From IMG/VR virus record IMGVR_UViG_3300042922_000811, positions 1 through 38,414 of that record: DNA of 38,414 nt; one strand, written 5' to 3'. The position numbers were made by a program, and so were the translations under genes. This document shows positions 7,166 through 9,871 of this stretch, in pieces. This DNA is from a virus. Every line of letters starts with the position of its first letter. Position 1 is the first letter of the stretch. A model generated the notes under the pieces. It was not told the DNA's origin. It made no database searches and saw nothing but the letters and a program-made list of their open reading frames with translations.

Positions 7166-7705
7166 TCAGGGCTGGTTGTGAGCACCCGGGTCACGGAAAT
7201 GTGCCGGGTTGTGCGGGTCGACCGTGGCCGGGATCTCCGCAGGGGCCGAGAGCGTCGTGATACTCGCGACGGTGCCGGCGGTGGCGGTGCCAGCGTCGAT
7301 CGGGACGCGCGTGGGGTCGGCGGGCAGCGTGGCGAGGATGAGGCGCACGAACGAGCCCAGAGCGGCGATGAGAGCCGCCTGCAGCACGAACGCCCAGTCG
7401 ACGTCGGTGATGAGCGTCGCACCGACGAAGCCCGCGGCGAGCGACTGCGCGAACGTCTTCACGACACGCTCGACGGCAGCGAGCCACCACGGCAGGTCCA
7501 CGCCCTCCACCTCGGGAAGGCCAGCGAGGCTGGTGACGATCGACGCGACGAACGCGAGCGCCGAGGTCAGCAGCACTGTCACCCAGGGGATGTCGGCGAG
7601 CAGCGATGCGCCGAGGTACGGCACGGCGACGACGAGGGCGGTGTACGCGGCGCGCTTGCCGGCGTCCGCCCACCATGTCGGGTTGGTCAGGTTGGAGAGC
7701 TTCAC
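7166..7705 (-). CDS. holin-like membrane protein with duplicated r1t-type holin module
   Basis: A 179-aa protein with two similar halves. Each begins with a Pro-x-Trp-Trp box, then an amphipathic Ala-rich helix, a membrane segment, an (I/V)-(P/D)-W-(V/A) box and a second membrane segment (about 5-62 and 71-128). This pattern matches phage r1t-type holins. The C-terminal 50 residues are a polar Thr/Ala/Pro tail. It starts at GTG 7705 with GGAAGGAA upstream. As a holin it would form inner-membrane lesions that release the endolysin. A terminator separates it from the other lysis genes. Confidence 0.75.
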   Translation of the reverse strand: MKLSNLTNPTWWADAGKRAAYTALVVAVPYLGASLLADIPWVTVLLTSALAFVASIVTSLAGLPEVEGVDLPWWLAAVERVVKTFAQSLAAGFVGATLITDVDWAFVLQAALIAALGSFVRLILATLPADPTRVPIDAGTATAGTVASITTLSAPAEIPATVDPHNPAHFRDPGAHNQP

Positions 7706-7752: not shown

Positions 7753-8059
7753 AGTTGGTGAGTCCTTCGGGCCACGGCGGCGACGGGGGTTTCTTCCCCT
7801 GGTCGATGTGGTCGCGGAGGGTGTGGATGTAGTCGTCACGGATGCGCTCGCGCCGCAGGCTTGCGTCGAGGCGCGCGTCCGTGGCCGCGGCGCGCTTGAG
7901 CGCCGTCTCCACCTGCTCTTGGAGCTGGTCGATGAGCGCGTTCTCGCGAGCGCCGCCGCGGTTGAGGATTGCGACGGCGATGCCGGCCACTCCGGCGATG
8001 AGGGCGACGACGATGGTCGGCATGGATGAGGTCAGCGCCGCCCACGCCTCAGGCGGCAC
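7751..8059 (-). CDS. single-span membrane protein with coiled coil (holin-like)
   Basis: A 102-aa protein with one membrane helix near the N-terminus (about 13-32) followed by a charged helical region (about 35-85) likely to form a coiled coil, and a Pro-rich end. It starts at GTG 8059, overlapping the upstream membrane gene by 11 bases. Small proteins with this plan are common in actinophage lysis cassettes and are called holin or lysis-accessory proteins. It could be an antiholin or a spanin-like helper. Position beside the endolysin is the main support. Confidence 0.65.
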   Translation of the reverse strand: MPPEAWAALTSSMPTIVVALIAGVAGIAVAILNRGGARENALIDQLQEQVETALKRAAATDARLDASLRRERIRDDYIHTLRDHIDQGKKPPSPPWPEGLTN

Positions 8060-8462
8060 GACTTCTCCGCGTGTGCCAGATCGACAGGATGCCGATCATC
8101 GCGGCCGGACCGAGGTAGGTCGTGGCGGTCAGCCACTCCCGCGACTCGATGCCGAGCACGAGCGCCTCGATCCACCCGTAGAGGTACGCCGCGCCCCACG
8201 CCGTCATCATGAAGGTCAGCGCCCCCCAGCCGACGGCGTCCTGAAGCCGGAACGCCATCACGACGCAGACCACGCCGGCGATGAGCCAGAGCACCGCCCA
8301 CGCTTCGAGCGTGACGGGCGGGTTCGCGATGAGCTCGAGCCCTCGTGGGAGAGCGTCAGGGCGCGTGCCGAGGGGGAGGTAGGCGACGCCGCGTGCGGCG
8401 CAGTAAGCACCGGCCACCAGCAGCGCCGCCCCCCGCGCCCCGTTCAGCCGGGGCGATCGCAT
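8049..8462 (-). CDS. four-helix membrane protein of the lysis cassette
   Basis: A 137-aa protein, strongly hydrophobic, with about four membrane segments (roughly 11-28, 46-64, 71-90 and 112-128). It starts at ATG 8462, which forms a TGATG overlap with the endolysin stop; longer in-frame starts run into Arg-rich out-of-frame sequence. Position directly after the endolysin suggests a holin or lysis regulator. I do not recognise a named family. Confidence 0.68.
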   Translation of the reverse strand: MRSPRLNGARGAALLVAGAYCAARGVAYLPLGTRPDALPRGLELIANPPVTLEAWAVLWLIAGVVCVVMAFRLQDAVGWGALTFMMTAWGAAYLYGWIEALVLGIESREWLTATTYLGPAAMIGILSIWHTRRSRAA

Positions 8463-8785
8463 CAGCCGATGCCGGCGGCGGCGTCGTGGATCTTCTGCAG
8501 CTTCTCGCAGTAGCGGTACTCGTCTCCCGACGGGAGGCGGCTGAGGTCGGCGGAGACCCACTTGAGGTCGTGCAGGCTGAGGAACCACGCGAGGTTTTCG
8601 TCGTTGAACTGACGCTCACCGGCGGCCTCGCGCTGGGCGGGGCTGGCTCCCGCGGGGAACCACTGTCCCGTGTTTCCGTAGTTCGTCAGTCGGGCACCGT
8701 GCTCGTTGACGTGCGCGGTGATTCCATACCCCGGCGTAAGGGTGTAGCTGACGCCGGTGGACTCGCGGCGAAGGTTGATCGACAT
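8462..8785 (-). CDS. putative internally translated C-terminal endolysin fragment
   Basis: In frame within the endolysin, ATG 8785 (codon 157) is preceded by GAGGAGG at 8800-8794 with 8 bases between: a near-ideal SD, stronger than that of the full-length gene. It would give a separate 107-aa protein starting MSINLRREST and equal to the domain after the linker. Some endolysins (for example enterococcal Lys170 and clostridial CTP1L/CD27L) are known to make their wall-binding domain from such internal starts and assemble with the full enzyme. Whether that happens here is inference. Confidence 0.5.
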   Translation of the reverse strand: MSINLRRESTGVSYTLTPGYGITAHVNEHGARLTNYGNTGQWFPAGASPAQREAAGERQFNDENLAWFLSLHDLKWVSADLSRLPSGDEYRYCEKLQKIHDAAAGIG

Positions 8786-9253
8786 GTTCTGGTCCTCCTC
8801 GGACTGGTTGGGGGTCGTGCCGGGAGTGGCTGAGGCGGGTGCCTCGCCACCGATCGCGTCCTCGAAGTCGAGGGTCTGCGAGTAGGAAAGCCCCTGGCGG
8901 GCGCGACGGGTGACGTGCAGGTGCGCGCCGTAGTACCAGTCCTCGCCGAAGCCAGATGCTCCGGAGCGGGCGATGCCGGTTTGCCCGGGGCTGACGCGCG
9001 CGCCGACTCCGACGCTGATGCTCGACAGGTGAATCCAGTCGATGACCTCGCCGTTGTCCATGAGGAACGTCAGTCGGCGGCCCTCCGCTCCGTCGTTCGA
9101 GTGGTCGACGCCGATCACACGCCCGGCGCCAGGCGCGCGCAGATCGGTTCCGTAGGCGGTCTTGTAGTCGGTGCCGGGTTCCTTGCTGCCGCGCGCGATG
9201 TGCGCCGCGCGGTCATCCGAGATTCCGACGTCGGCCGGGGTGGTGTAGCCCAT
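8462..9253 (-). CDS. endolysin: M23 (LytM-type) peptidase domain plus C-terminal wall-targeting domain
   Basis: A 263-aa lysis enzyme. The M23 domain spans about 25-125: YGTDLRAPGAGRV (first box), WIHLS with His75, and AHLHV with His111 and His113. M23 enzymes cleave peptide cross-links of peptidoglycan using zinc held by HxxxD and HxH. Here the first histidine position is Ala33, although Asp37 is kept. A Pro/Ser/Thr linker (about 135-156) leads to a 107-residue C-terminal domain with an internal start (see 8462-8785). ATG 9253 has AAAGGA upstream. The gene heads the lysis cassette. It lacks a signal peptide, so export should depend on the holins. Confidence 0.85.
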   Translation of the reverse strand: MGYTTPADVGISDDRAAHIARGSKEPGTDYKTAYGTDLRAPGAGRVIGVDHSNDGAEGRRLTFLMDNGEVIDWIHLSSISVGVGARVSPGQTGIARSGASGFGEDWYYGAHLHVTRRARQGLSYSQTLDFEDAIGGEAPASATPGTTPNQSEEDQNMSINLRRESTGVSYTLTPGYGITAHVNEHGARLTNYGNTGQWFPAGASPAQREAAGERQFNDENLAWFLSLHDLKWVSADLSRLPSGDEYRYCEKLQKIHDAAAGIG

Positions 9254-9272
9254 GCGGGCACGTCCTTTCCTC

Positions 9273-9308: not shown

Positions 9309-9467
9309 ATGGCAAGAGAAGCAAAGCCCGTCCGGTCGATCCGGGTCGGCAGCATCTGGGAGACTGCGAAGGCGATCGCCGAGCAGAACGGCGAGAACTT
9401 CGCCGACGACGTCGTGACGCCCGCGCTCGAGCGGTACGTCGCCCGCAACAGGAAGAACCAACGATGA
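9309..9467 (+). CDS. small ribbon-helix-helix-like protein (moron)
   Basis: A 52-aa basic protein. A short beta-like segment (SIRVGSIWETAKAIAEQ) is followed by two helices ending in ALERYVARNRK, the general plan of Arc/CopG/MetJ-type ribbon-helix-helix DNA-binding proteins. ATG 9309 is preferred over 9252 because the extra residues overlap the divergent endolysin start. No clear SD, so the mRNA may be leaderless. Its stop overlaps the lipoprotein start (ATGA), so the two are co-translated. Likely an autoregulator of this cassette; the family call is tentative. Confidence 0.6.
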   Translation: MAREAKPVRSIRVGSIWETAKAIAEQNGENFADDVVTPALERYVARNRKNQR

Positions 9468-9871
9468 AGCGCTTAGCCCCTATCGCCGCCACAGCCGCGG
9501 TCCTGCTCCTGCTCACCGGGTGCTCCGGCGGCACCGATCAGGTGAACACTGCCGTCGACAGCGCCACGCCCGCGGCCGCCGCGACAGAAGATGCAGCAGC
9601 ACCGCTCACCGCCGAAACCGCCACGACGAACGCGGCCCGCGGCGATGCCGTTTTCCTGGAATCGGTTCGCTCCGAGCTGCGCCCTGACAACGTCATCCCG
9701 AACGCCACCGACGAGCAGCTTCTAGAGGCAGGCGAGAAGGCGTGCGAAGGGATCGCTTCGGGCGCTGACACTCTGACGCTGTCGCTCATCGACGGAGAAG
9801 AGCCGGACGCATCGGGCTTCTATCCGGACAGTGGCGTGATCATTCGCGCGGCTCGCGCAGCGCTCTGCTAA
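9464..9871 (+). CDS. lipoprotein, DUF732-like (lysogenic-conversion candidate)
   Basis: A 135-aa protein. Basic start MKRLAP, hydrophobic helix, and lipobox LTGC with lipid-anchored Cys20. An Ala/Thr-rich linker (about 24-62) leads to a domain with conserved-looking FLESVRSEL, then GEKACEGI, and a final Cys. The spacing of the two Cys residues and the helix pattern resemble DUF732 proteins of Actinobacteria. It should be anchored on the outer face of the cytoplasmic membrane. It is transcribed against the late genes and converges with 9868-10578 (stops overlap by 4 bases), the hallmark of a moron expressed from the prophage. Confidence 0.8.
   Translation: MKRLAPIAATAAVLLLLTGCSGGTDQVNTAVDSATPAAAATEDAAAPLTAETATTNAARGDAVFLESVRSELRPDNVIPNATDEQLLEAGEKACEGIASGADTLTLSLIDGEEPDASGFYPDSGVIIRAARAALC

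Follow-up and report, generated by a model that had tools for sequence, protein, structure and literature searches.

Endolysin genes that yield two polypeptides from a single reading frame are already known, and the best described come from phages of Clostridium and Clostridioides, where CTP1L, CD27L and CS74L each have an internal Shine-Dalgarno sequence (SD) and start codon in the domain linker, the second product being the C-terminal domain (CTD) alone. For these three, two products are reported as proven with SD knock-outs, and the SD, mostly of GGAGG type, is kept in relatives (PMC4777826). Lys170, LysIME-EF1 and LysP7951 similarly combine one catalytic and one binding domain with an internal start between them and a free C-terminal polypeptide; two products are proven for LysP7951 among others, heteromultimers in ratios of 1:3 and 1:5 have been described in this group, and multimerisation is described as not general among two-polypeptide endolysins (PMC9430671). 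The same survey, of 3,780 endolysins with four genes validated, predicts an internal start in 49.1% of 635 non-redundant endolysins and also in 15.2% of portal genes (PMC9430671), so that real endolysin starts are hard to distinguish from chance. In the lactococcal LysP008 and Lysc2 an internal start is present and expression is reported without two polypeptides (PMC9371310). Ms6 LysA, from an Actinobacteria phage, contains an embedded in-frame second lysin (PMC3314691, PMC9430671). For Microbacterium phages, the main text of PMC9430671 does not contain the genus name, the available text of PMC7302621, on these phages, says nothing on internal starts, and among titles and abstract openings we found no publication on internal starts in their endolysins.

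The endolysin gene studied here (W) lies in a 38,414-nucleotide stretch of the IMG/VR virus record IMGVR_UViG_3300042922_000811, which was analysed whole and is called the window below (Table 1). W has the layout of a two-polypeptide gene, namely an in-frame second ORF that shares the stop of the first, with a ribosome-binding site and start between the domains, and it joins this known kind. Like CTP1L, CD27L and CS74L (PMC4777826), and like Lys170, LysIME-EF1 and LysP7951 (PMC9430671), it is one gene with the internal start between its domains; the differences are that the catalytic part is an M23 peptidase in W and an N-terminal glycosyl hydrolase domain in CTP1L, that the CTP1L CTD is a wall-binding domain of solved structure (PMC4777826) whereas a sequence search of the PDB with the W CTD gave nothing below E 1, that heteromultimers are on record in the Lys170 group (PMC9430671) and only predicted for W, and that the internal product of Ms6 LysA, unlike that of W, retains a second catalytic domain (PMC3314691, PMC9430671). 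The original prediction had described a GAGGAGG motif, an 8-nt gap and an in-frame ATG placed after the linker and before the CTD. Direct reading of positions 8800-8783 of the minus strand confirms every element, and the start lies where it was said to, behind both the M23 domain and the linker; the internal SD-ATG site is real.

Table 1. Features of the endolysin gene W and its neighbours in the window, and of two stand-alone CTD proteins in other phages.
Feature	Position	Strand	Evidence
Holin, r1t type	7166..7705	-	PF16945 E 3.8e-12; phrog_443 E 1.3e-22
Small lysis-cassette protein, one hydrophobic segment	7751..8059	-	ORF, PHROG search, hydrophobicity
Next lysis-cassette gene, hydrophobic protein; ATG overlaps endolysin stop (TGATG)	8049..8462	-	phrog_4026 E 2.1e-19
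Endolysin gene W; 263 aa, M23 domain + linker + CTD	8462..9253	-	ORF, ATG at 9253
Predicted second product, free CTD, 107 aa	8462..8785	-	In-frame ORF, stop codon in common with full ORF
Internal start ATG (Met157 of 263)	8783..8785	-	Sequence; in frame
Spacer between internal SD and ATG, 8 nt	8786..8793	-	Sequence
Internal SD, GAGGAGG	8794..8800	-	Sequence; duplex energy -11.6 kcal/mol
Linker, residues 131-156, ending with the acidic, SD-coding SEEDQN	8786..8863	-	Sequence, comparison of relatives
M23 peptidase domain, residues 25-118	8900..9181	-	Peptidase_M23 PF01551, E 2.1e-10
SD region of full-length start, AGGAAAGGA	9263..9271	-	Sequence; duplex energy -13.4 kcal/mol
MementoMori gp79, 132-aa hypothetical protein	L131:48562-48960		
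Cinna gp78, 132-aa hypothetical protein	L132:1375-1773		

The catalytic domain of W scores 41.1 bits against PF01551, for which the curated cut-off is 28.7, as expected of an M23 endolysin. The usual motif with the first zinc ligand of M23 is HxGxD; in W it is replaced by EPGTD (window 9167-9181), and EPGTD or NPGTD occurs at the same position in most of the relatives listed, suggesting either an unusual metal site or a shifted ligand. Downstream, the hydrophobic protein between endolysin and holin falls in a family labelled ‘minor tail protein’ (phrog_4026), a name that may be wrong. Divergently from the endolysin gene, window 9309-9871 (+) holds a short ORF that by eye resembles a ribbon-helix-helix protein and a second ORF with a lipoprotein-like signal, LLTGCSGG, also seen by eye. 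The M23 domain is nearest to those of Microbacterium phages, while the tail genes match phages of Gordonia, Mycobacterium and Streptomyces at 65-70%, these matches covering no more than 6% of the query (best 10 of 24 records); with no close isolate, an attempt to name the host was abandoned.

How strong is the internal SD? Expressed as the energy of the SD:anti-SD duplex (16S tail duplex model, kcal/mol throughout), it is the strongest among the 92 in-frame internal ATGs of the 21 window genes, and its value is reached by 15 of 791 window ATGs when both strands are counted. It also outdoes the SDs of most gene starts in the window, a stronger one preceding 5 of 21 starts as given by the uncurated ORF list. 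As a null, we replaced the eight codons ahead of the ATG by randomly chosen synonymous ones in 25 genes and compared the resulting SDs with those observed. For W (amino acids NQSEEDQN, own codon usage) 70% of random codings match or exceed the SD, and for its relative L007 74% are at least as strong. Because random synonymous codons do as well 70% of the time, the W SD alone is no evidence of selection, and SD strength was rejected as sole proof of a start; the evidence for selection is the comparative data set out below. Over the 25 genes the mean SD is -9.1 against -7.7 for the null (Wilcoxon p 0.007; Fisher-combined per-gene p 0.23), from which codon choice appears to contribute little, so that an acidic hinge could account for part of the SD. 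GC-rich codons for E, D and K yield SD-like runs for free, and a selected acidic hinge could thus mimic part of the signal. In its full form this alternative holds that the acidic linker and its border residue are selected as peptide, that the SD is a by-product of GAG, GAC and AAG codons, and that the ATG is unused; the similar SDs of the null in GC-rich genes and the acidic residues that fill the spacer too are both in its favour. We nonetheless consider it quite unlikely, since it leaves unexplained three features of the relatives: an in-frame Met at the right distance, the missing SD-ATG where the CTD is of a known type, and junction SDs built from other residues.

Those relatives were gathered from several sources. 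The catalytic part of W matches 58 of 50,697 phage records (tblastn), all from Microbacterium phages, and the full protein matches seven loci in IMG/VR: one (L006) has the same CTD, five (L007, L008, L010, L011, L012) have a related M23 domain with different small CTDs, and one (L009) joins a related M23 domain to a PG-binding CTD. Six of the seven, all but L009, place an in-frame ATG at the start of the CTD; the junction SD is -9.2 to -11.6 in L006, L007, L008, L010 and L011 and weak in L012 (-5.1), and the GAGGAGG itself is unchanged in L006 and L007. For a broader survey, 104 endolysins were reduced to 79 representatives by removing near-copies, and 14 of these (Isperia and DizzyRudy among them) were dropped for having no M23 motif or fewer than 40 aa after M23, leaving 65: 26 whose small CTD is an orphan (a count that includes both W and the closely related L006), 26 of PG-binding/LysM type and 13 with SH3 plus amidase. 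The orphan class was assigned by eye and afterwards checked with Pfam and PHROGs, which upheld the split: the 26 orphan regions gave one Pfam match (PepSY_TM_like_2, E 0.0075, in one member), and the 39 others gave PG_binding_1 (24), Amidase_2 (9), LysM (4) and SH3_3 (3).

With the orphan class, junction zone and SD threshold fixed after the pattern had been noticed in the first relatives, an in-frame junction ATG was found in 25 of the 26 orphan-CTD endolysins, and with an SD of -6 or better in 23; the sole member without the ATG (L044) has a GTG with an SD of -11.8, and the SDs of L012 and L039 (-4.3) are weak. Among the relatives with known CTDs the count is 0/39 (0/26 PG-binding/LysM, 0/13 SH3 plus amidase), and in an out-of-frame control on the orphan group an ATG occurs in 18 of 52 frame-zones but with an SD in only one. 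Fisher p values are 1e-14 between groups and 7e-9 for in-frame versus out-of-frame ATGs, both made too small by kinship, although the CTDs collected (35, see below) spread over 17 blastp clusters. Conservation of the SD and Met in homologues, the check that the original prediction had proposed, is thus found, and the SD, whose absence from all close relatives it had named as counting against a second product, is kept. The 26 C-terminal regions are otherwise unalignable, and conservation reaches 90% in a single alignment column, that of the internal Met. The peptides ahead of it vary (SEEDQN, KEYPD, LGSDHE, PEEI, PEGTE, VKDDD, KRDED, RKEDTD) and the purine-rich, SD-like stretch persists despite this; some junctions build it from residues such as LGSD, PEG, VKD and KRD (LGSD in L029, null p 0.012), which a selected acidic peptide would not predict, and we know of no role for a Met in a hinge.

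A second set, classed by eye only, was drawn from 398 genomes belonging to the same family as G001, which carries the Leucobacter locus L118; M23 relatives turned up there at eight loci in seven genomes. Five of six loci with a small orphan CTD have the junction start, with SDs of -10.3 (L123), -5.9 (L125), -10.3 (L126), -12.7 (L128) and -6.6 (L129); no junction start was found in L124, which has an orphan CTD, in L127, which has no CTD, or in L130, which has a long CTD of another type. By these comparisons the internal start is conserved at the same relative place in the relatives of W.

DNA comparisons place the boundaries of exchanged segments at this start. Between W and L007, identity of 94.8% begins at 9270, which is 17 nt ahead of the full-length start, and breaks off at 8792, inside the SD-ATG spacer; past this point no match was found within the CTD. 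W and L006 diverge only in the M23 core (window 8914-9153; 14-22 mismatches per 60 nt), the flanks and CTD being nearly identical, and the catalytic core, too, seems to have been exchanged. In G001, a genome of 1.9 Mb, one CTD family is joined to CHAP and amidase_2 domains in three endolysin genes. Here the CHAP endolysin L118 matches the amidase_2 endolysin L120 (80% DNA identity) and the CHAP-like L122 (72%) starting precisely at the first base of the internal ATG, the match of L120 to L122 begins 14 nt upstream of the ATG and includes the SD-like sequence, and L118 matches L121 in the catalytic part only. This CTD family, A2 (MPKNSG-like), is attached to two sorts of M23, to amidase_2, to CHAP and to a weak VanY match (DizzyRudy; E 0.0012, under the curated cut-off), and in the members scored the ATG is the first residue in 13 of 13 with an SD of -7 or better in 12 (L039 the exception). 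In the relatives the segment from internal start to stop behaves like a small gene nested in a larger one, and it can be transferred as a unit. The survival of a start through replacement of everything downstream is a stronger argument than SD strength.

The CTD of W itself, which the original prediction did not recognise, proved to be an orphan. Its 107 residues match no Pfam family at E<=1, PG_binding_1, LysM and SH3 included, and give one chance-level PHROGs match (E 0.22); no relative was found in the 50,697 phage records (tblastn), in plasmids or in genome contigs, so that the domain is known from W and one near-identical IMG/VR copy, and a search for stand-alone copies in the same data and in IMG/VR found none. 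The AF2 model is of low confidence (pLDDT 65.6) with no structural match above Z 3.7, and a known fold was sought in the PDB by sequence, with Foldseek and with VIA-align and found no reliable match outside the family itself; rows for HIV integrase, MutS and RuvC among the structure matches were counted as unreliable, and the missing fold match shows nothing. Homology to the MPKNSG family was rejected, as hhalign set the first strands in register with a probability of 0.3%, without significance; the element order of the two AF2 models looks alike, the W model being poor. That family occurs in 2 of the 398 bacterial family genomes and therefore represents no common host domain in that sample. 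More widely, 35 collected CTDs fall into 17 blastp clusters; they were gathered partly for having the start and so give no denominator for its frequency. In the PlyC holoenzyme, free binding subunits (the PlyCB ring) stand beside the catalytic chain, and PlyCB is encoded by a separate gene. A model of another CTD family, not that of W, aligns with PlyCB (4f88 chain D; Z 4.2, rmsd 3.5, 58/63 residues), but no better than with unrelated folds listed (Z 4.4), so that this likeness is only a lead.

By Kyte-Doolittle analysis alone, 8 of the 35 collected CTDs have a predicted membrane helix (L036-L040, L046, L060 and L070; at the very C-terminus in six), and from the internal start such genes would make a short protein with a tail anchor. 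The A2 family also exists as an independent protein, as seen in MementoMori gp79 and Cinna gp78, in which a hydrophobic N-terminal helix precedes the A2 CTD alone, encoded about 18 kb from the endolysin gene. The link was made through the A2 model (pLDDT 81), for which Foldseek returned a 132-aa MementoMori protein (E 8.7e-7) that is probably gp79, judging by its length and a profile match (E 2.6e-18). Both proteins have a sigma factor gene one gene away and basic residues after the helix, which would presumably suggest a domain facing the cytoplasm. For W these proteins may serve as an analogy, its CTD having no significant relation to A2.

Two further explanations turn on these observations. 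If the CTD once had a gene to itself, complete with SD and ATG, the internal start could be a relic of fusion, as the stand-alone homologues of one CTD family and the CTD modules that begin at ATG or SD would suggest. A relic should decay, however, yet ATG and SD are kept in 23/26 over very diverged CTDs; all phage tblastn places with the Wyvern and L062 CTDs, both A2, are endolysin genes (10 records each), and the stand-alone A2 versions are membrane-anchored, with no bare CTD gene among them. We therefore regard a relic as very improbable. Alternatively, a second product is indeed made, with the CTD serving not as a wall-binding subunit but as a regulator that sits close to the membrane or binds the endolysin; the free form would then control when or where the enzyme acts. 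The helices of the eight CTDs and of the MementoMori and Cinna proteins point this way and complicate the reading of the internal product as a free binding domain, whereas the W CTD has no such helix, has no significant relation to the family with stand-alone members (the hhalign result above), and occupies the position of the wall-binding CTDs of known two-product endolysins; for W a regulator seems unlikely.

We propose that W is a two-polypeptide endolysin, with a probability of about 0.72 for this explanation as a whole. Translation initiated at 9253 would yield the M23 endopeptidase complete with CTD (263 aa), and initiation on that mRNA at the internal SD-ATG (8785) would yield just the 107-aa CTD. 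The internal start is probably used, because it is kept even where the tail domain was swapped for an unrelated one, and it would be maintained by selection, as relatives preserve it through CTD replacement. Of the original two-product reading, the comparative data bear out a start between the domains that is conserved in close and distant relatives and an orphan CTD; wall binding and hetero-oligomers we infer by analogy, wall binding being the default by position and precedent. The CTD would then be a subunit targeting the cell wall or lysis site, whose free copies may either assemble with the full-length enzyme or act as its competitors, and the ratio of the two products of one gene would set binding strength and lysis timing. 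The stop of W overlaps the next start at window 8460-8464, and coupled translation of the 8049-8462 gene would also profit from internally starting ribosomes.

What appears to be new is a class of orphan CTDs that nearly always carries its own start, with swap boundaries at that start. More tentatively, and with clearly less than even odds, the internal SD-ATG may be a standard socket for orphan CTDs in phages of Microbacteriaceae, with fast-evolving CTDs taken up as complete translation units, from internal start to stop, whether the catalytic part is M23 of either sort, amidase_2, CHAP or the weak VanY match, so that every swap would keep a two-product gene. The CTDs would then be autonomous lysis proteins and no mere binding tails, and the membrane-anchored stand-alone A2 proteins, together with the tail-anchored CTDs, suggest that the free CTD may tune the enzyme at the membrane. 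Those who express or codon-optimise such endolysins should expect two products, or the loss of one, and the internal start marks out a set of orphan lysis domains that is open to tests at the bench.
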